Assembly (NCBI GenBank): GCA_003153875.1
Contig: PMBY01000051.1
Location: 5,646 to 19,827 of the forward strand
DNA: 14,182 nucleotides
Reading direction: 5' to 3'
DNA from: Myxococcales bacterium
GTDB lineage: Bacteria > Myxococcota > Polyangia > Fen-1088
How positions within the stretch are numbered: the stretch's first letter is position 1; every line of letters starts with the position of its first letter. The position numbers were made by a program, and so were the translations under genes. Under the pieces are notes generated by a model. It saw only the letters and a program-made list of their open reading frames with translations. It was not told the DNA's origin and did no database searches. This document shows positions 3,607 through 13,447 of this stretch, piece after piece.

Positions 3607-4758
3607 ATGAAGCGAAACATCCTCATCGTGGGCGCCGGGCTCTACGGGGCCGTCTGCGCACATACGCTGACCAAGGCCGGACACCGTGTCCGGGTCATGG
3701 AAAGGCGAGGGCACGTGGGCGGAAACTGTTACACGCGCTACTGCGAACCCGCTGGTTGCCATCAGCACGTCTATGGCGCACACGTCTTTCACACAAGCAG
3801 CAAGCGCATCTGGCAGTACGTTACACAGCTGACTGAATTTCACAGCTACGTCAACCGCGTAAAGGTGAATTTCCGTGGCGCCATTTACAGCTTTCCCATA
3901 AACCTGCTTACCCTGCATCAACTGTATGGAGTTCAGTCACCAAGCGAAGCCATTCGCAAGCTAGGGGAAGTCCGCATCCCCATTCAAAGCGCCGAGACCC
4001 TAGAAGACTATTGTCTGTCGACCGTCGGTCCGGAGATCTACCGAATCTTCTTCGAGGGATACACGACGAAGCAGTGGAACCGTCACCCGCGCGAGCTCCC
4101 CGCCCACATCATCAAGCGCCTCCCGATTCGGATGGATTTCAACGACAATTACTACAACGACACGTACCAGGGCATCCCGAGCAACGGCTACACGGCGCTC
4201 TTCGAGCGTCTACTCGAGGGCATCCCGGTCGAGCTCGACGTCGATTTCCTTACGGCTCGAGACGAAAACATAGATAGGCACGATCTAACAATATACACCG
4301 GCCCTATTGACGCCTTCTTCCGCCACTCTCGCGGCGCACTCGAGTATCGCTCGCTGCGCTTTGAGACGACCCTTCTCGACTCAAACGACTTTCAGGGCAA
4401 CGCCGTAATCAACTACACGGACCGTGAAACGCCGTGGACACGGATTGTCGAGCACAAGCACTTTGGCCCATCGAACACAAGCAGCCAGACGCTTATCACC
4501 CGCGAATTCCCGCTCGACTGGCAATCCGGCCTACCCGAATACTATCCGGTGAACGATTCGAAGAACAAGGCTCTACTTCGCGCCTATCAACGAGACGCTC
4601 TGGCCCTTCACCCCAAGGTACACTTTGGAGGAAGACTTGCCCAATACCGGTATTACGATATGGACCAAGTGATCGGCGCCGCCCTCCACTACTGTGGTCC
4701 CGTGGATCCGGCGGTCGCGGCTTTGTCTTCATCTTCGGCAAACGAGAACACGCTATGA
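3607..4758 (+). CDS. glf: UDP-galactopyranose mutase
   Basis: A 383-residue FAD enzyme that converts UDP-galactopyranose to UDP-galactofuranose, the donor for galactofuranose in surface glycans; the family is usually 365-400 residues. The N-terminal dinucleotide fold is clear: GAGLYGAVCA (9-18), an acidic residue at 32 and GGN (38-40). Family signatures follow: YGAHVFHT (56-63), SYVNRVKV with YSFPINL (80-100), EGYTTKQW (150-157), RLPIR (171-175, containing the catalytic-region arginine), EYYPVND (311-317) and the flavin-end motif GGRLAQYRYYDMDQV (341-355). No part is missing. I start at the ATG at 3607, just before KRNILIVGAG; an upstream in-frame start at 3571 would add 12 unlikely residues. 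No strong ribosome site. First gene of a four-gene operon; its stop overlaps the next start as ATGA. Confidence 0.96.
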   Translation: MKRNILIVGAGLYGAVCAHTLTKAGHRVRVMERRGHVGGNCYTRYCEPAGCHQHVYGAHVFHTSSKRIWQYVTQLTEFHSYVNRVKVNFRGAIYSFPINLLTLHQLYGVQSPSEAIRKLGEVRIPIQSAETLEDYCLSTVGPEIYRIFFEGYTTKQWNRHPRELPAHIIKRLPIRMDFNDNYYNDTYQGIPSNGYTALFERLLEGIPVELDVDFLTARDENIDRHDLTIYTGPIDAFFRHSRGALEYRSLRFETTLLDSNDFQGNAVINYTDRETPWTRIVEHKHFGPSNTSSQTLITREFPLDWQSGLPEYYPVNDSKNKALLRAYQRDALALHPKVHFGGRLAQYRYYDMDQVIGAALHYCGPVDPAVAALSSSSANENTL

Positions 4759-5738
4759 AGAAGCGTTGGCGTCAGGTAATCCTCATTTGCCCGAATTCCG
4801 TGACAGGCGGGCCCGAAGCACTTCACCAGCTTGGTCATATGGTGAACAAACTCGGCGGAGACGCCCGTTTCGCCTACTTTGGGGGACGCTGCAAACTTCA
4901 GATCGACAAGGACCGACTTCTTTGCGAGCTCGACCCCAACTGTGAACCACTTTCGGCATATGCAGCCTACAACCCCACCGTGATCACCGAGATCAAGCTT
5001 GACACCGATATTCTGCTTGTCTTCCCCGAGATCCTTGCCGAGTTGGCTGCCGGAGTTCGCGGCGTAGCCACGGCCGTCTGGTGGCTTTCCGTGGACAACG
5101 CTCTTCGCCAGAACGTGAATCTGACCTATCCCAGCTCTCGCAAGCTCTATTTCGCCAACACCGAGCTCATCCACTTCTTTCAGTCCTACTATGCTCACGA
5201 CTTTTTGCGCCAGAATGGCGCCCAGACGGTCTATCCGCTGTTCGACTACGTGTCATCGGAATTTCGCTTCGCAGATCCCGGCGAGCCGTCTCCACGCGAG
5301 AAGATTGCATTCTTCCCCTCCAAAGGGGGAGAGCTGGCGAAAAGCTTCTTCGAGCGCGCACCCGACCTTCAACCGATGCCCATCGCCAACATGACGCGGG
5401 CGCAAGTGTCTCAAGCTCTAGCGACGTCCGCCATCTATATTGACTTCGGCCATCACCCAGGAAAGGATCGCGTGCCACGTGAGGCCTCTGTCGCGGGTGC
5501 AGTCGTTCTTCTGCACCAGGTCGGCGCCGCGAATTTCTACCTCGACCACCCGCTCGACCAGCGCTACCTGTTCACGCAAAAGAGCATCGAGACCGGCGCG
5601 CTGGCCGGGCTCGTACGGACGATCCTCGCGGAGAGAGAGAAGCATCTGGCGGCGCAGGGGGCCTATCGCCAACGGATCGCGAACGAACTGCACGAATTCG
5701 AGCTGCAAGTATCCAACGCCTTTTTCGCACCGACCTGA
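4755..5738 (+). CDS. Putative GT-B-like glycosyltransferase
   Basis: A 327-residue cytoplasmic protein whose ATG overlaps the glf stop (ATGA, 4755-4758), so translation is probably coupled. The N-terminal half starts with a strand and a glycine-rich turn (VILICPNSVTGGPEALHQL, 8-26), as in GT-B transferases. The second half contains AFFPSKGGE (185-193) and DFGHHPGKDRVPREA (230-244), followed by a small-residue loop and NFYLDHPLDQRY. The HPGKDR-PREA block, with its Glu-containing C-terminal helix, matches a group of uncharacterised proteins in capsule and O-antigen clusters and sits where GT-B enzymes bind the nucleotide sugar. The position after glf makes a galactofuranosyl or neighbouring sugar transfer plausible, but donor and acceptor cannot be read from the sequence. 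An upstream in-frame opening to 4434 lies inside glf and is ignored. Confidence 0.8.
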   Translation: MKKRWRQVILICPNSVTGGPEALHQLGHMVNKLGGDARFAYFGGRCKLQIDKDRLLCELDPNCEPLSAYAAYNPTVITEIKLDTDILLVFPEILAELAAGVRGVATAVWWLSVDNALRQNVNLTYPSSRKLYFANTELIHFFQSYYAHDFLRQNGAQTVYPLFDYVSSEFRFADPGEPSPREKIAFFPSKGGELAKSFFERAPDLQPMPIANMTRAQVSQALATSAIYIDFGHHPGKDRVPREASVAGAVVLLHQVGAANFYLDHPLDQRYLFTQKSIETGALAGLVRTILAEREKHLAAQGAYRQRIANELHEFELQVSNAFFAPT

Positions 5739-5763: not shown

Positions 5764-7644
5764 ATGACAACGAGCCCAGCCTCCGACCTCTTCACTTCGA
5801 GTCAAGTCAAGACGTTCGAGCACCTTCTAAACGCCCATCTGAACTCACCTGAAGACGATTCTCTAGCGAGTCAGGTTCTCGCATTTCGTCGCCAGATGGT
5901 GGACCTTCTTCAAGCTTGCGGGCCCAACCAGATCCAATCGCTTTTCCAAGGCACGTTTGGGTCCGTTTTTCGCGCCCTGGTCGCGGCAAACTTTTCGACG
6001 TCGCCGCCCGATAGCCAGGCAGCGGCGTCATCCGCCAAACTCGCCGAGAGCTGCCTGGCTCAGTCAGACTCTTCTTTCGATGTTCGCCCGCTTCTTTCCT
6101 GCATGCTGCTCATTCAAGCCCACCAAATCAAGCTACCGAATCTGCTGCGCTCCGTGCCCGATTGGCTCTTCGACGACTACCTAGCCTACCTTCTGCAGGC
6201 TCCCCCGGTCTTTCTCCATGCTACCGAAGCCGACGACTACGCCGCGCACATGCAGTCGTGTCTCCGAGCACTTTGGGACGAAATCTCGCGTGCCCCCGAT
6301 CAGCCGCGCACTCGCCGCGCGGCTCACGCCTTCATCGCGAAAGCCAATTTCATTCCCCTGTACTTCGCAAACAGCAACACCCGCGAACTGGCAACCCTTC
6401 GGGCCTCGATAATTGAGCATTTCTTGCGTAGCCAGGGCGCTGCCATAGACGCCAGTTTTTCCATCGAGAGCACCGTCTCCAGAAAGACTCGAGTCGGCTT
6501 TCTCAATGCTCACTTTGGCCAGCAGACTGAGACCCACGTCGCCCTCCCTACGTTTAGGCTCGATCGCGACAGGTTCGAGGTCTGCCTCTTCTCTCTTCTC
6601 AGTAATCCTGGCGCGGTCGAAACCTACTGCCGCTCCCTTGCCGACGCCTACACACTTCTGCCTCCGGCTCTCGACGCTCAGGTTCGCACTCTCCGTGCGG
6701 CCAACCTCGACGTCATCATCGTTGGCACCAACGTGACAGCTGTCACCAACCAGGTGTCTCTCATCGCGTCGCATCGGCTTGCGCCAATCCAGCTTGTCAC
6801 CTACTGCTCCCCTGTCAGCACCGGGATGCGGAACATTGACGGATACATCTCGGGAACGCTCAACCATCACTCTGGCCTGGATGAGCACTTCTCCGAGAAA
6901 CTCTGTTATTGCGATGGCCCCCCCGGCTGCCTCGACTATTCAATCGAGCCACAGGGAACCCTGAAGACGATCAGGCGATGCGACCTGGGACTTCCAGACG
7001 ACGCGGTCGTGTTTGTGAACGCCGCCGCATGCTTCAAGATCCTGCCGGAGATGCAGGACACGTGGACGAAGATCCTAGCTGCCATTCCGCATGCACGCCT
7101 CCTCCTCCTCCCATTCAATCCCAATTGGTCAAGGACATTTCCCGTCAAGCAGTTTGAGTCTTCCCTGTCGCGCGTTCTTCGACGTCACGGCCTTTCAAGT
7201 GACAGAGTGAGCCTTGCCCCGTCTCTGCCAACCCGCAGCGATGTCAAAAGCGTCGAGGCACTCGCTGACATCTATCTGGATACGTTCCCCTTCTCGGGAA
7301 GCATCTCGGTGATCGATGCGCTGGAACTCGGCCTTCCCACCGTTGTGTGGGAAGGCGAAACGCACCGTTCACGCATGGCCTCTGCCTTGCTGCGCGAGCT
7401 CGACCTACCCGAGCTCATTGCCACCGATCAAGACAGCTACATTGACCAGTCGGTCGCTCTCGCATGCGATAACGCATTCCGCGACCGCTTGAAGACAACC
7501 ATCGCCGAACGAATGGCGCGCCGCCCTCGCTTCATCGATCCCGGCGCCTACGGTCGTCAGCTGAGCATTCTCCTCGAAAGGCTAGTCCGCGAACATCGTG
7601 CTGCCCAAAGATTGACCGAAGCGTCAGCGCCTCAAGTGGCCTAG
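5764..7644 (+). CDS. GT41-family glycosyltransferase without TPRs (HMW1C/OGT-like)
   Basis: A 626-residue protein. Residues 1-235 look all-helical and match no repeat I know. The GT-B catalytic part follows: VGFLNAHFGQQTETHVALP (244-262), with His258 aligning to the OGT histidine in its SHLM-type motif; an HFSEKLCYCDGPPGCLDY block (375-392); FVNAAACFKILPE (417-429), with Lys425 aligning to the UDP-phosphate-binding lysine; and DIYLDTFPFSGSISVIDAL (502-520) plus GETHRSRMASALL (531-543) for the UDP site. The Thr-rich loop normal in OGT is Ser-Ile-Ser here. Length and layout (helical N-terminus, no TPR, about 165 residues between the His and Lys) resemble HMW1C-type N-glycosyltransferases. The alternative is a SPINDLY-like enzyme acting on a glycan. 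It starts 25 bases after the preceding gene, with no clear ribosome site. Confidence 0.85.
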   Translation: MTTSPASDLFTSSQVKTFEHLLNAHLNSPEDDSLASQVLAFRRQMVDLLQACGPNQIQSLFQGTFGSVFRALVAANFSTSPPDSQAAASSAKLAESCLAQSDSSFDVRPLLSCMLLIQAHQIKLPNLLRSVPDWLFDDYLAYLLQAPPVFLHATEADDYAAHMQSCLRALWDEISRAPDQPRTRRAAHAFIAKANFIPLYFANSNTRELATLRASIIEHFLRSQGAAIDASFSIESTVSRKTRVGFLNAHFGQQTETHVALPTFRLDRDRFEVCLFSLLSNPGAVETYCRSLADAYTLLPPALDAQVRTLRAANLDVIIVGTNVTAVTNQVSLIASHRLAPIQLVTYCSPVSTGMRNIDGYISGTLNHHSGLDEHFSEKLCYCDGPPGCLDYSIEPQGTLKTIRRCDLGLPDDAVVFVNAAACFKILPEMQDTWTKILAAIPHARLLLLPFNPNWSRTFPVKQFESSLSRVLRRHGLSSDRVSLAPSLPTRSDVKSVEALADIYLDTFPFSGSISVIDALELGLPTVVWEGETHRSRMASALLRELDLPELIATDQDSYIDQSVALACDNAFRDRLKTTIAERMARRPRFIDPGAYGRQLSILLERLVREHRAAQRLTEASAPQVA

Positions 7645-7680: not shown

Positions 7681-10392
7681 GTGGACGCGAGTCAATTCTG
7701 GGACGCCATGAACAATAGCAATTCCAAGAACCCCGAGTCTCTGCCGTCTCCTAGCGAAGTCTGGTACGCCGATAATGATGTCCGCTACGTCTCGACGCCG
7801 CCGTCGGCACGAACCTTTTGCAGCGTAGCCCATGAAAGCCGCTATGCCTGGGTTCTCCGCAATCAGGAGCTTGAGGGCAAGACGGTTCTCGATTTCGGCA
7901 GCGGGTCCGGCTACGGCACCCATCTCCTGGGTTCCCGCGCGGCTCTCGTTCACGGAATCGACTATCCCGCGCAAGCGGTCGCCTATGCTGCGACTCAATA
8001 CGCGAAAGAGAATGTCGCCTTCTTTCGGGCGGACGCATCGTCGGCACAAGAAATACTCGACGTTCTCCAACCCGACACCTACGATCTCATCACCTCCTTC
8101 GACGTCATTGAACACATCTCGGCGTATCGAGGGTATCTCGCAAACGTCGTCCGGCTCCTCAAAACGGATGGTGCCCTGCTTATTGGCTGCCCCAACCGAC
8201 TCCAGACGCTCAACTGGAACCGGACTTGGAATCCTTTTCACAAGCAGGAATTCGGACCACGGCAGTTCCGCGAAATACTCCAGGACTATTTCGAGGACGT
8301 GACTCTTGTGTCCCAGGACTTTTTCGATCCGGCCAAACGGGAAGCCGCGCGCGTGAGGAACTACGAAGCCTCCAAGCCTTCTCCGCCCTTGCTTCTCGAC
8401 GACGCAGACATTGCCTTTGTTGAAGAACCAGACCCTGCGGCACTCGACCAAGCGTTCGGCCTCATGGCGATATGCAAGCGACCGAGACGGCGGCACACGG
8501 CCAAGGATCCGGTCAAGGTGCTTCTCATCGAACCCAAGTACGCCTCCAAGGAGGCGCTTCCCTGGATACCTATCGGCAAGGGCTACTTGGCCGCCCTGCT
8601 GCGCAGAGAGGGTTTCGAAGTCAAGATCATCGACAATGCTTTGCACGCTCTTGGCGATGCGGCCCTGTTGCAGCAGATCGAGAGCTACAGGCCGGCAATC
8701 GTTGGGACGGGCGGCATGACGTTGCAAATGAGCGACACCCTCCGGATCGTCCGGCTCATCCGCTCCTCGAGCGTTCGCGACGCACTGTTGATTGGTGGCG
8801 GAGTTCACTTTACCCTCCTGCCGGATGACGGCATCGATCTCTTCGATTTGCTCGTCATTGGGGAAGGGGAGAGCACCTTCCTTGACATCTGCAACCGATT
8901 TCGAGGTCGCGGCGGATCGCGGGAAGCGCAGGTCTATGCTGACATCCCTGGCCTTTGCTGCAAAGTCGGCGACACCATGGTTCGTTCTGAGTCCAGACCA
9001 TTCATCGAGGACCTCGACGCGCTTCCCTTGCCTGCGTACGACCTTCTCGACGTCAAGCAATACAACGACTTCCTGATCACAGGAGAACGAGCCGTTAGCG
9101 TCATGACCGGTCGCGGATGCCCTTTCGACTGCCAATTCTGCGCAGCACCGACGCTATCCCGCCGAAAAGTCAGAACCTTCTCTCTCCAATACACGTTCCG
9201 GCTGATGGAATACTTACAGGAGGTCTACGGGTTCACCAATTTTCGGGTCATGGACGACACCTTTGCTTCCTGCAAGCAGCGGGTTGTCGCCTTCTGTGAC
9301 GAGATTCGAAAACGCAAGATGAAGCTCAACCTCACCTGCCTCACGCACGTCAACACTGCCGACGAGGCCACATTCCGCGCCATGAGAGAGGCTGGCTTCA
9401 CCATCGTCGCGCTCGGCATCGAGTCGGGGAACGATGAGATCTTGAAGAAGATCAATAAGCGCATCACCCGCCGACGGGCAATCCGCGCCATCAACCTCGC
9501 GAAGCAGGCGGGCCTTCTTGTCGAAGGGCTGTTCATGATCGGCAATGTCGGTGAGACGAAAGAAACCATTGAAGACACGATCAAGTTTGCGAGCACCTAC
9601 AATCCCGTCTTTGTCAACGGCAAGCGGGCAGGCTTCAACTGGTTCCAATTTGCGACGCCCTTTCCAGGCTCCCGTTTCCATAAGAGCGCGAGCCGTTACG
9701 GCACCGTTGTTTCCACGAACTACGACGACTACACCCACCAGACCCCTGTTTTCATCCCAACGGGTCTTGATGTCGCGACGATGGTCCAGCTACGACAGAG
9801 GGCACTCCAAGAAGCCGGTTACGGAACGCCCACGGGCGAACACCAAGCCCGCCTTGTCGCCGAACAGCGCTACCGTGAGATCCACGCATCCGTTGCCGCT
9901 GATCGCATGAACGAAGTCTACCGAGCTCTCGTAGCTCTGGCCGACGAATTCCCGACGTTTGCTCACGCCCACAACGATCTCGGCGTTCTTGCCTACGCTT
10001 GCGGCAACAAGGACACAGCCCTGAAGCACTGCCGCCTCGCAGTCGAACTGGCCCCGGGCAACGTCAATTTCCTCAAGAACCTTGCCGACGTCCTTTATCT
10101 TTCATTCGGAAGGATTGTCGAAGCTGTTTCAATCTACCTCGACCTGGCTTCGCGTGCGCCCGACGACATCGAAGTCCTTCTCGCGCTCGGCAACGCTAGT
10201 GTCGCCCTGGGTGAGATCGCCGATGCAGAGAAATTCTTCGATCGGGTCCACCGCCTTGACCCTTCTAACAACCTGGCACAGCAAGGACTCGCCTTCGTTC
10301 GCGCGCAGCACAATCAGGCTTCTCTCGTACGCACCACCGACGTCTCGCCCGCACGTGAAGCAGATCCTGGCGGGACTCCCAGCACGGTGTAG
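7681..10392 (+). CDS. Fusion: SAM methyltransferase + B12-binding radical SAM + TPR
   Basis: One uninterrupted 903-residue frame with three units. Residues 25-266 are a class I SAM methyltransferase: motif I VLDFGSGSGYGTHLL (69-83), acidic GIDYP (92-96), DLITSFDVIEH (135-145) and LLKTDGALLIGCPN (159-172). Residues 278-405 are a cobalamin-binding-like domain (PIGKGYLAALLRREGFEVKI, IGGGVH, VIGEGESTF); the base-off DxHxxG motif is absent. Residues 470-690 are a radical SAM core with CxxxCxxC at Cys480, Cys484 and Cys487, then GIESGND (579-585) and FATPFPGS (657-664). Residues 740-868 hold about four TPRs. The radical SAM part may methylate unactivated carbons and the N-terminal unit O or N atoms; the TPRs may dock the substrate or partner enzymes. 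The GTG at 7681 is the first usable start; the ATG at 7708 is an alternative that trims nine residues. It lies 36 bases after the GT41 gene, as the last gene of the operon. Confidence 0.88.
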   Translation: MDASQFWDAMNNSNSKNPESLPSPSEVWYADNDVRYVSTPPSARTFCSVAHESRYAWVLRNQELEGKTVLDFGSGSGYGTHLLGSRAALVHGIDYPAQAVAYAATQYAKENVAFFRADASSAQEILDVLQPDTYDLITSFDVIEHISAYRGYLANVVRLLKTDGALLIGCPNRLQTLNWNRTWNPFHKQEFGPRQFREILQDYFEDVTLVSQDFFDPAKREAARVRNYEASKPSPPLLLDDADIAFVEEPDPAALDQAFGLMAICKRPRRRHTAKDPVKVLLIEPKYASKEALPWIPIGKGYLAALLRREGFEVKIIDNALHALGDAALLQQIESYRPAIVGTGGMTLQMSDTLRIVRLIRSSSVRDALLIGGGVHFTLLPDDGIDLFDLLVIGEGESTFLDICNRFRGRGGSREAQVYADIPGLCCKVGDTMVRSESRPFIEDLDALPLPAYDLLDVKQYNDFLITGERAVSVMTGRGCPFDCQFCAAPTLSRRKVRTFSLQYTFRLMEYLQEVYGFTNFRVMDDTFASCKQRVVAFCDEIRKRKMKLNLTCLTHVNTADEATFRAMREAGFTIVALGIESGNDEILKKINKRITRRRAIRAINLAKQAGLLVEGLFMIGNVGETKETIEDTIKFASTYNPVFVNGKRAGFNWFQFATPFPGSRFHKSASRYGTVVSTNYDDYTHQTPVFIPTGLDVATMVQLRQRALQEAGYGTPTGEHQARLVAEQRYREIHASVAADRMNEVYRALVALADEFPTFAHAHNDLGVLAYACGNKDTALKHCRLAVELAPGNVNFLKNLADVLYLSFGRIVEAVSIYLDLASRAPDDIEVLLALGNASVALGEIADAEKFFDRVHRLDPSNNLAQQGLAFVRAQHNQASLVRTTDVSPAREADPGGTPSTV

Positions 10393-10415: not shown

Positions 10416-10950
10416 TTGCCGCTGTTCATACGGTCGGACAATGGACCACCGTTTGCGTCGCAAGGGCTGCACGGGCTCACGAGGCTGTCCGTGTGGTGGA
10501 TGCGACTGGGGATTGTGCACGAACGCATCGATCCTGGGCACCCGGAGCAGAACGGCCAACACGAGCGGATGCATCGGACACTGAAGGCCGAAACCACGCG
10601 ACCTGCAGGACAGCATTCGCTGGAGCAGCAAGAACGCTTCGACGCTTTTCGCGAGGAGTGCAACAACGAGAGGCCGCATGAGGCGCTGGACGGCAAAGGC
10701 CCTGCCAAGGTGTACACGCCATCGCCGCGACCCTTCCCCGAGAAGCTGGCTGACCCCGTCTATCCTCTGCACGACGACACTCCCTCCTGGTGTTGGACCT
10801 GGGCACCTACGACCCGAAGCTGGGCATCTTCAAGCCAACTACGTCGTGATCACCCCGAACTCATTGCATTCCGCACGCGCGGTGGAGCGCTCAACATCCA
10901 GAAGAAGTGTTACCCATGTGCCCGGTCTAAAACGTCACCCATCTTCCCGC
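10416..10950 (+). mobile_element. Decayed 3' part of an IS481-like insertion sequence
   Basis: From 10416 to about 10778 the frame encodes the C-terminal part of an integrase-core transposase: IRSDNGPPFAS (catalytic Asp), GHPEQNGQHERMHRTLK (catalytic Glu, 35 residues later), ERPHEAL and SPRPFPEKL. The first two thirds of the gene, with the first catalytic Asp, are absent. Near 10780 the frame shifts by two: from 10784 another frame gives DLGTYDPKLGIFKP, meets a TGA at 10847-10849, and ends VLPMCPV with TAA at 10928-10930, a familiar C-terminus for this family. About 50 residues seem deleted at the shift. The right end seems to include the repeat pair at 10908-10950. I see no left end or target duplication. 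The remnant begins 23 bases after the fusion gene and cannot encode an active transposase. Confidence 0.75.
10908..10950 (+). repeat. Imperfect tandem repeat at the right end of the IS remnant
   Basis: TGTTACCCATGTGCCCGG (10908-10925) recurs as CGTCACCCATCTTCCCGC (10933-10950), 13 of 18 bases identical with a 25-base period. The first copy overlaps the last codons of the transposase. Paired TTACCCAT-CCCGG blocks of this kind are found at the ends of IS481-group elements and may be transposase binding sites. No inverted copy is visible on the left. Confidence 0.5.
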
Positions 10951-11001
10951 TTGCACACAAGACGCCCACGAACTCGCTCACGCCCACGCGACCCGCGACC
11001 C

Positions 11002-11027
11002 GCGGGCCGGCCCTTCGGGCGGCCCGC
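11002..11027. repeat. Strong GC hairpin without T-run
   Basis: GCGGGCC, one extra G, then GCCC, a TTC loop, GGGC and GGCCCGC form an 11-base-pair stem with a single bulge. It lies between the IS remnant and the aminotransferase remnant, after a short ACCCGCG direct repeat (10991-11004). There is no following T tract, so it is a poor intrinsic terminator for the plus strand. It could be a dispersed palindromic element. Confidence 0.55.
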
Positions 11028-11069
11028 AATTACCCGACAGACTCTAGCTACGGCAACCTGTGCGATCTG

Positions 11070-11393
11070 ACGGCGTTGGCCGACCATCCTGGTTTGCGCT
11101 TCCCGCGCATTTGCGCCGAGGTCGTCCCGGTGATGTGGGCGGTGGCCATACGACTGGACCCAAACCGGATTCGCATGGGCCGCGACGCCCTCATTGCGCG
11201 GCTGCTCGCCGACGGAATCGAGACCCGCCCGGGATTCTATCCGGCGTCCGCACAGCCACCCTTTGCCGGCCCGCCCGTGGGCAACAGCGAACGCCTGGCT
11301 TCGCAGATCATCAGCCTGCCTGCATCGCCGACACTGGCTGAAGAGGAAGTGGACCAGGTGTGCACGCGACTGCTGGCTCTAGCATCTCCTTGA
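11070..11393 (+). pseudogene. 3' remnant of a DegT/DnrJ/EryC1/StrS sugar aminotransferase
   Basis: The last 107 codons of a PLP-dependent nucleotide-sugar aminotransferase, a family normally 360-400 residues long. The frame reads ALADHPGLRFP, then MWAVAIRLDPNRIRMGRDAL, GIETRPGFYPASAQPPF, and a C-terminal helix pair starting IISLPASPTLAEEEV. This matches the C-terminal subdomain of perosamine- or StrS-type enzymes. The PLP lysine and the rest of the active site lie in the missing N-terminal two thirds. The frame is fused by chance to the transposase frame upstream, with 10779-11069 as junction sequence without homology that I recognise. The stop is two bases from the stop of the convergent GT41 gene. 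It has no start or ribosome site of its own. Confidence 0.8.
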
Positions 11394-11395
11394 GA

Positions 11396-13447
11396 TCAGC
11401 GGCCGCGACAGTAGGCCCGCCATGCCTCACGAAAGGCGGCTTCTAGCCCACGCGTCAAAGGCCCAGCGTCCATCAAAGGCGAAGCCAGAAGTCTGCGGCG
11501 CAACCCTGAGCGCAACTCGCCCAAACTGTCCCGCTTCCCCGCCCAAGCCACAGCCTTGTCCGCATAGTCCGACTGATCCTTGGCAACCAACTCCTGCAGG
11601 CCCACTCGGCTCAACAGACTCGCGCCGACTCTGCCTGCGTGACAGCGTCCCTGCAAAGTAAGAACAGGCACTCCCATCCACAGCGCTTCGCAAGTCGTGG
11701 TGGTTCCGTTGTAGGGGAACGTGTCCAGCGCCAAGTCCACCTCATGGTAGCGCTGCAGATGGTCTGCGGCCGATTGCTCATGGCCCATGAAGCACACACG
11801 CTCTGGTGCAATTCCTCCGTGCGCGGCAAGCGTTCTGAGAATGCGCCGCTTGACCCCTTCATTTCGCAGCCCGTGCGCCTTGAGAAGAAGCCTGCTTCCG
11901 GGCACCCGGGCCATAATCGCGGCCCAGATCTGCAAGAGCGTGTCGTTTGTCTTTGCCATATTGTTGAAGCTGCCAAAGGTCATGTGACCGGTCTTGCACA
12001 CAGGCGACTCGGCAACCGGTATCTCCCTGGCGAAGGGCGGAACCGAGTAGGCAAGAAAGCCCCCGTCGATTCGCAGAAGCTTCTCGCTATGCCACGCGTC
12101 GGCAACTCCAGGAGGATCTGCCACAGCGTCGGTGATTCGGTAGTCCATGCTGGCAAGTCCCGTGGTGTTGGGATAGCCGAGATAGGTTATCTGCACCGGA
12201 GCCACGCGCTCCGCCAGCATGGGCAAGCGATTGTCAGCGGTATGGCCCGAGAGTTCTATCAGCACATCAATTTGATCATCTTGAATGAGCGCGGCAAGGT
12301 CGTCGTCACTCATCCGGAACACGGGACGCCAGCGGTCTGTGGCCTGGCGGATCCGTTCCGTCATTGCATCTTCCACGTTGCAGGTCGCATAGCACGTGAC
12401 CTCAACCACGGAGCGATCGTGAGCCTCGAGAAGCGGCGCAATGAAGTGGGCAACTGAGTGAGTGCGAAAATCCGGCGACAGGTAGGCAATGCGCAGCCTC
12501 TTTTCGGGGCCCATTGATCGCGGTGCCAGTGGCCGAGGACTCGGCTTGACGATTTCATTGAAGCGGCGGTGTTCGGCCGCGACCCAGTTGGGCTCTGCGG
12601 CGGGATCATCGTTGAGGGAAAGCAGGTACCCGGAGAAGACGCTTGCCTGATCAGGCTTGAGGCGAAGGGCATGCTGATAGTGGCGCCTGCATTCCGCCAG
12701 CTCGCCCTGATCGCGCAAGAACATCGCGAGGTTGTTGTGTGCCTCCACGCAGTTGGGGTCCACCTGCAACGCTCGGCGCATCATATTGACCGCCACGTCG
12801 GTTAGCCCAGTGATGTTGGCGAGAATGCCCAAATGGAGGAAGGCCCTGACCGACTGCGGGTCCAGTTCGAGAACCCGCTGGAACGCGGCCCGCGCCTCCG
12901 ACAATTGATGCAATTCGAGCCACGCTAGGCCGAGATCGTTATAATAGCCCGGATTGTTGGGGTCTAGATCGAGCGCCCGGGTGAAATGTGCAACCGCCGC
13001 TTCGCTCTGGCCGAGCTTGCCATAGCAATAGCCCAGGGCACGCTGGGCCGGAGCGGAGTCTGGTTCAATGGCCACCCGGCGCAAGTGCAGGGGCAGCGCT
13101 TCGCGGAAGCGCCCAGCCTCTTCAAGGGCCGCCAGCAGCCTTTGCAGCAGGTTGAGGAAGTTGCGCCGGATCACCGGGCGTTCTGGCGCCAATGCGAAAG
13201 CCTTGCTGAGTAGCTCGAAACGCTCTTCGGCCTTGACGCCCTTCTTGTCGTAGATCGTCGCCAGATCGTTGAATGCTTCGGGGTCCAGGGTGCCGCATTC
13301 AATGGCTGCGCCATAGGACTCTTCCGCCAGGTTCAGGTTGCCTTGGGCTATCGCCAGCTTGGCGGCTCGGCACAGCTTCGCCGCCTTCAACGCAGGATTT
13401 TCCTTCACCGCGTTTTGCCTGCGGCGCAGCCCGGTCTTCCTGCTCAT
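11396..13447 (-). CDS. TPR + SPINDLY/OGT-type glycosyltransferase (GT41)
   Basis: A 683-residue cytoplasmic protein of the predicted O-linked N-acetylglucosamine transferase, SPINDLY family. Residues 25-268 contain about seven TPRs (for example GQSEAAVAHFTRALDLDPNN, 146-165), which in this family hold the acceptor protein. The GT-B part starts near 317: LRIAYLSPDFRTHSVAHF (318-335), with His334 at the catalytic-histidine position; ELSGHTADNRLPML (398-411); PVQITYLGYPNTTG (417-430); FGSFNNMAKTND (491-502), with Lys499 at the UDP-phosphate lysine position; and DTFPYNGTTTTCEALWMGVPV (575-595), plus a GRCHAGRVGASLL loop. It is full length with motifs intact. It could add GlcNAc, fucose or another sugar to Ser/Thr; the donor is not readable from the sequence. 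The ATG at 13447 is preceded by only a weak GGGG. High GC, like the right flank. Confidence 0.92.
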   Translation of the reverse strand: MSRKTGLRRRQNAVKENPALKAAKLCRAAKLAIAQGNLNLAEESYGAAIECGTLDPEAFNDLATIYDKKGVKAEERFELLSKAFALAPERPVIRRNFLNLLQRLLAALEEAGRFREALPLHLRRVAIEPDSAPAQRALGYCYGKLGQSEAAVAHFTRALDLDPNNPGYYNDLGLAWLELHQLSEARAAFQRVLELDPQSVRAFLHLGILANITGLTDVAVNMMRRALQVDPNCVEAHNNLAMFLRDQGELAECRRHYQHALRLKPDQASVFSGYLLSLNDDPAAEPNWVAAEHRRFNEIVKPSPRPLAPRSMGPEKRLRIAYLSPDFRTHSVAHFIAPLLEAHDRSVVEVTCYATCNVEDAMTERIRQATDRWRPVFRMSDDDLAALIQDDQIDVLIELSGHTADNRLPMLAERVAPVQITYLGYPNTTGLASMDYRITDAVADPPGVADAWHSEKLLRIDGGFLAYSVPPFAREIPVAESPVCKTGHMTFGSFNNMAKTNDTLLQIWAAIMARVPGSRLLLKAHGLRNEGVKRRILRTLAAHGGIAPERVCFMGHEQSAADHLQRYHEVDLALDTFPYNGTTTTCEALWMGVPVLTLQGRCHAGRVGASLLSRVGLQELVAKDQSDYADKAVAWAGKRDSLGELRSGLRRRLLASPLMDAGPLTRGLEAAFREAWRAYCRGR

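Follow-up and report, generated by a model that had tools for sequence, protein, structure and literature searches.

The Fusion Gene and Its Domains

The stretch of DNA considered here (the window: 14,182 nucleotides from a Myxococcales bacterium, assembly GCA_003153875.1, contig PMBY01000051.1, positions 5,646 to 19,827) carries on its forward strand a run of four genes encoding a UDP-galactopyranose mutase (GLF), a GT-B glycosyltransferase, a GT41 transferase and, at 7681..10392, a fusion protein, the subject of this work, in which a class I S-adenosylmethionine (SAM) methyltransferase, a B12-type radical SAM module and a tail of tetratricopeptide repeats (TPRs) are read in one open frame of 903 codons. 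The first codon of this frame is GTG, and the near-copy of the window's 903-aa protein (P0001) in the database, P0002, is recorded at 903 aa; an 894-aa protein is also possible, because ATG 7708 (codon 10) has GGGA upstream and lines up with Met13, which is internal in the relative P0003. An initial annotation, made from the letters alone, had described a single polypeptide with three parts and good coding character throughout, and both statements hold: the GC content of third codon positions exceeds that of second positions in all 16 of the 60-codon blocks, and the Methyltransf_23, B12-binding, Radical_SAM and TPR matches all exceed their Pfam gathering scores.

The methyltransferase domain (7867..8286, residues 63–202 by Methyltransf_23) has fold matches spanning about residues 26–271 and is recognized both by the Pfam fold model and by a glycine-rich motif I, VLDFGSGSGYG, at residues 69–79. 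The B12-binding (Rossmann) domain follows (8557..8883, residues 293–401), scoring 68.8 bits with PF02310 (gathering score 32.1) in agreement with the fold matches, and within it M346 is the best candidate for the residue beneath the cobalt, which in class 1 cobalamin-dependent radical SAM enzymes is a residue other than His in the loop after strand 3; in an alignment with no ligand modelled M346 falls at the position of TsrM Arg69 and OxsB Asn186, and L348 at that of TokK. The radical SAM core (9106..9591, residues 476–637 by Pfam Radical_SAM) has its CxxxCxxC motif for a 4Fe-4S cluster at 9118-9141, where C480, C484 and C487, the cysteines picked out by the annotation, are kept in 32/32 rows of alignment A5 and 8/8 rows of alignment A1. 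Beyond it come a C-terminal region common to the radical SAM clade described below (QFATPFPGS ... HQTPVFIP; 9592..9816, residues 638–712), codon 716 at the boundary with the repeats (9826..9828), which is ACG in the window and TAG in a near-identical contig of a metagenome-assembled genome (MAG), and the TPR tail (9925..10293, Pfam TPR families within residues 749–871). In an AlphaFold2 model of the whole protein the radical SAM part is good (pLDDT about 92), the methyltransferase fair and the TPR tail poor (about 62), and the relative placement of the domains is unreliable because the pTM is 0.59.

Relatives That Share the Junction

A database search with P0001, in which the 7990 candidates sharing most words were scored, gave 30 proteins at E <= 0.001, and a second with a three-row alignment, in which 7997 candidates were scored, gave 82 at E <= 1e-20. 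The methyltransferase and radical SAM domains occur together in only five of these 82 relatives (P0002–P0006, from precomputed Pfam assignments), one of them the near-copy, in line with the earlier expectation that the two activities are usually separate proteins. P0003 (881 aa) has the same full layout including the TPR tail, with 69% identity overall, and P0004, P0005 and P0006 keep the methyltransferase and radical SAM parts at about 56% identity, with other domains replacing the tail. P0003–P0006 share the methyltransferase/radical SAM junction and are 54–67% identical to P0001 over the methyltransferase, the linker in P0004–P0006 being a net four residues longer than in P0001. Among the fusions the pairwise identities are 51–84% for the methyltransferase and 55–85% for the radical SAM part, and they rise and fall together, as expected from two parts travelling together. 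An assembly or frameshift artefact near residues 266–278, which the annotation had named among the things that would refute its reading, is thus rejected, the same junction being present in five proteins and in the MAG contig.

A Pfam scan of seven relatives (P0003–P0006 and P0008–P0010) found glycosyltransferase domains in four, GT4 in P0005, P0006 and P0009 and Glycos_transf_1 in P0008. In P0004 there is a Methyltransf_24 domain and then a region that, along 325 residues, shares 31% identity with the product of the window's reading frame 4755-5738; P0010 has a long N-terminal region with no Pfam match, and P0009, which begins inside the radical SAM core, carries TPRs and a C-terminal methyltransferase as well. 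TPRs are present in two of the seven, P0003 and P0009.

A Radical SAM Clade Outside the Named Families

Into a tree of the radical SAM region 57 rows were entered (P0002 and P0009 were not) and 56 kept, a filter having removed P0214, the sole row named HpnJ. Forty of the 56 rows, P0001 among them, group together with 100/100 support, and the branch leading to them is long (0.69). This clade comprises seven fusions (P0001, P0003–P0006, P0008 and P0010) and 33 standalone proteins, of which 31 are from the database (P0007 and P0152–P0181; 408–513 aa) and two are viral (407 and 411 aa); several rows outside the clade are long, and some of those long rows meet. The methyltransferase fusions split into two groups in the free tree, and their constraint to a single clade is not rejected (p-AU 0.314); the two groups may have arisen independently or only once.

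The placement of this clade outside the named families comes from the curated cut-offs and not from the tree. P0001 reaches none of the cut-offs for the 25 families listed, out of 49 hit in an NCBIfam-type profile search, and P0152, P0173 and the radical SAM protein of the viral contig L047 also lie under every cut-off listed for them. The highest-scoring curated profiles for P0001 are BchE (TIGR02026, 154.6 bits against a cut-off of 481.35) and HpnJ (TIGR03471, 134.5 against 577.6), and the AprD4 family (NF033070) reaches 97.5 bits against 500, over residues 422–691 only. A methylation of phosphorus, on a phosphonate or phosphinate carried by a glycan, would find some encouragement in the scores with PhpK P-methyltransferases (TIGR04479, 121.7 bits) and the Sden_1168 family (95.2 bits), but these are far under cut-offs of 600 and 575, and on these scores we consider such a reaction very improbable.

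Two of the 28 loci obtained when viral contigs were scanned with the radical SAM alignment are at 43% identity and 26 at 20–29%; the same contigs searched with the whole of P0001 gave no match. In L047 the radical SAM gene lies in a run with genes for GLF, a class III aminotransferase, a SPASM protein, NeuB, an SIS-domain protein, a cytidylyltransferase, an MptE-like protein and a GT8 protein that barely passes its threshold (24.4 bits, cut-off 24.3), and terminase and portal genes come after the run; among the nearest NCBIfam profiles are those for GmhA, PseF and NeuB, none of which reaches its cut-off. This sugar cluster (L047:2147-12157) contains two radical SAM genes. From the reading of its frames L046 (784-9619) resembles L047; three of its proteins scanned against PHROGs had weak or no hits, and no packaging gene was seen within the 9.6 kb examined. 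One of 50,697 phage records matches the L047 radical SAM protein, at 23.6% identity, and among 72,556 plasmid records P0001 has matches in 54, in no case over 80% of its length, the best 20 of these 54 being 22.9–28.6% identical over the radical SAM part.

It could also be supposed that the target is a polypeptide, a peptide or glycoprotein being C-methylated and N- or O-methylated while the TPRs hold the protein substrate. This has little probability in our view, given that the score of P0001 stays below the curated cut-off of 750 for ApyD and that the fusion partners of the clade, like its neighbours in the phage contig, are sugar enzymes.

The Neighbouring Sugar Genes

A Galf (galactofuranose) pathway enzyme and a GT41 transferase had been noticed next to the fusion, and both are indeed found upstream of it on the same strand. 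GLF (3607..4758) scores 347.9 bits with TIGR00031, above the equivalog cut-off of 303.75, and its stop overlaps the start of the next gene (ATGA). This gene (4755..5738) encodes a glycosyltransferase of a family with no Pfam hit, whose fold is GT-B, like that of AmGGT, and whose homologue is fused in P0004; in one of the two plasmid loci examined, that of Azospirillum TSH58, a homologue adjoins glf. A role as Galf transferase is therefore possible for this protein, which adjoins glf both here and in Azospirillum. The family is large, with 1193 matches in the search and none in Pfam or NCBIfam, and distant homologues (22%) occur in four Enterococcus faecalis plasmid records. The third gene (5764..7644) encodes a GT41 transferase (PF13844, 95.8 bits, cut-off 25) with no Pfam TPR hits, and the four genes, GLF, GT-B transferase, GT41 and fusion, would make up one operon.

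The rimO-ngt-agt operon of Actinobacillus pleuropneumoniae offers an attractive comparison, the GT-B protein folding like AmGGT, but an N-glycosylation operon of the HMW1C/NGT type was dropped as a candidate. The window's GT41 is nearer to OGT/SPINDLY than to NGT, the nearest solved chain being 5djs (4.9e-25, against 1.5e-5 for 3q3e), it matches NGT chains in sequence solely over the later parts of the protein, and it reaches 37.5 bits with the HMW1C-like NGT profile (NF049992), whose equivalog cut-off is 1000. For the GT-B protein the sequence match to the Agt/AmGGT glucosyltransferases falls short of significance (profile E 0.23 to 8xsg).

Distribution and Lateral Gain

Only two loci were found in a search of genome contigs with P0001: the near-identical MAG contig (L009, PMZX01000009.1, Myxococcales bacterium fen_1103), in which 2703 of the 2712 bases of the fusion gene are identical to the window (9 differences), and a contig of a Coriobacteriia (L010), at 27%. 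Matches at E <= 1e-60 occur in 5 of 377 Myxococcota genomes, full-length in G001 only, with the same match coordinates as the MAG contig, and at 33–35% identity over the radical SAM part in the other four; two genomes of the same family have no match at this threshold. The GT-B neighbour is found in 1 of the 377 genomes (E <= 1e-20) and the window's GT41 in one of three genomes searched. This patchy occurrence, together with a GC content of 0.566–0.585 in the four genes against 0.612–0.672 in the flanking genes, points to a lateral gain of the run, as far as composition and occurrence can tell. At 10416-11393 a frame combines the C-terminal remnant of an IS481-like transposase with the C-terminal portion of an aminotransferase of the DegT/DnrJ type, which is the decayed edge of an island.

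From this it might be argued that independent glycan enzymes were fused by chance within a laterally acquired and partly decaying island, with no functional coupling and a dispensable TPR tail. The single full-length match in Myxococcota, the silence of the same-family genomes, the low GC, the remnants at the edge, the TAG ahead of the TPRs in the MAG copy and the variety of fusion partners among the relatives would all suit such an origin, but five proteins retain the methyltransferase/radical SAM junction, with 51–85% identity and intact motifs, and the tail is kept in P0003, at 69% overall identity, so that we regard a chance fusion as improbable. A search for MetH, as an indicator of B12 use, found three pieces, none over the cut-off, in a genome just 76% complete.

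Proposed Function

That the enzyme tailors a glycan of some kind, as the annotation had supposed, is well supported and in our judgment likely, because in its relatives the radical SAM part is fused to glycosyltransferases and is present in a phage sugar cluster. What is observed is the domains, their fusion, the conservation of the radical SAM cysteines, the gene order, and the recurring fusion or linkage of the clade to sugar enzymes; from this we propose, with the scales about evenly poised, a cytoplasmic glycan-tailoring enzyme with two active sites, which would combine a heteroatom methylation with a radical step, probably a C-methylation. The N-terminal methyltransferase would pass the methyl group of SAM to an oxygen or nitrogen of a sugar, and the radical SAM module, for which we infer cobalamin as cofactor, would abstract a hydrogen from a carbon of the sugar and then, most probably, add a methyl group derived from methylcobalamin. 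Somewhat better than even is the prospect that both active sites are used on a sugar or chain; C-methylation as the radical step stands at about even chances. The two activities may share one acceptor, which could be a nucleotide sugar or a lipid-linked chain as well as a glycoprotein. The TPR tail would hold the fusion to a partner from the same operon, perhaps the GT41 lacking TPR hits, or to the acceptor; docking of a partner encoded nearby is tentative, a little short of an even chance. Together the four gene products would build a glycan that contains Galf and modify it.

The closest functional precedent would be the pair GenN and GenD1 of gentamicin biosynthesis, to which the two modules of the fusion would correspond. 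GenN, a SAM methyltransferase of class I, and GenD1, a cobalamin-dependent radical SAM methylase, respectively N-methylate and C-methylate at C3'' and C4'', as described in PMC5461906. They are, however, separate proteins acting on a small-molecule antibiotic, in contrast to a single chain with TPRs beside glycan genes, and the likeness is one of function. In architecture the fusion corresponds to the class 1 cobalamin-dependent radical SAM enzymes, as defined for OxsB, TsrM and TokK (PMC13331322) and joined here, by fold, by CysS and MgmA, in which an N-terminal Rossmann domain of the cobalamin type precedes the radical SAM core; unlike these, it adds a methyltransferase at the N-terminus and a TPR tail. 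The cobalamin-dependent radical SAM enzymes described in the portions cited of PMC11659888, PMC5461906 and PMC13331322 have antibiotic precursors or proteins as their substrates, and a search of the open-licence literature in PMC found, among the papers listed, none on the methyltransferase–radical SAM–TPR fusion or on the clade.

Two observations temper this proposal. In the MAG copy two adjacent substitutions turn codon 716 from ACG into TAG, just after the conserved end of the clade and before the repeats, a stop that neither the window nor P0002 has; strain variation or an error of assembly could account for it, and whatever its cause it makes the role of the TPRs the least secure part. 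The other is that the best sequence/profile and fold match of the radical SAM core is AprD4, a radical SAM diol dehydratase which, according to PMC5461906, acts on a sugar-like substrate, so that non-methylating radical chemistry stays open. The module could then carry out some other radical sugar reaction (a deoxygenation like that of AprD4, an epimerisation, or a ring change like that of OxsB), leaving the methyltransferase as the sole source of methylation. Yet the significant alignment to AprD4 (profile 161–416) is limited to the radical SAM part and leaves aside the B12-like domain, which in P0001 has its own Pfam match (68.8 bits), and the fold Z-scores of AprD4, CysS, MgmA and OxsB differ by no more than 3.5; we hold this alternative to be unlikely, although a real contender.

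A wider reading, which is doubtful but worth stating, is that this is a novel B12-type radical SAM clade whose members, in bacteria and in phages, serve the construction of glycans and are repeatedly fused to glycosyltransferases and methyltransferases. Here one chain, with a methionine beneath the cobalt, would place heteroatom and radical C-methylations on a growing glycan that contains Galf, and branched-chain methyl sugars would result. If this were true, a clade tied to glycan assembly through gene fusions and gene clusters, including one from a phage, would give cellular or surface glycans a step of C–H functionalisation, there would be single-chain enzymes for C-branched or radical-edited sugars, and the fused forms would show which activities belong together.

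Other Genes and Related Loci

Outside the gene run the window contains, on the minus strand at 11396-13447, a second GT41 with many TPR-family hits, whose matches in G001 are just 26–32% identical, the MAG being incomplete in that region. GT41 domains are also found in large plasmid-borne fusions: an Acaryochloris plasmid (L018:10525-16203) encodes a protein of 1892 aa joining DUF4915, TPRs and GT41, and the Azospirillum B510 plasmid (L019:7877-19251) has three adjacent fusions, a TPR-methyltransferase (866 aa), a GT4-GT41 (1587 aa) and a TPR-GT41 (1240 aa). Finally, the gene at 977-2575 encodes a serine/threonine protein kinase, with 53, 59 and 80 matches in the nearest genomes.
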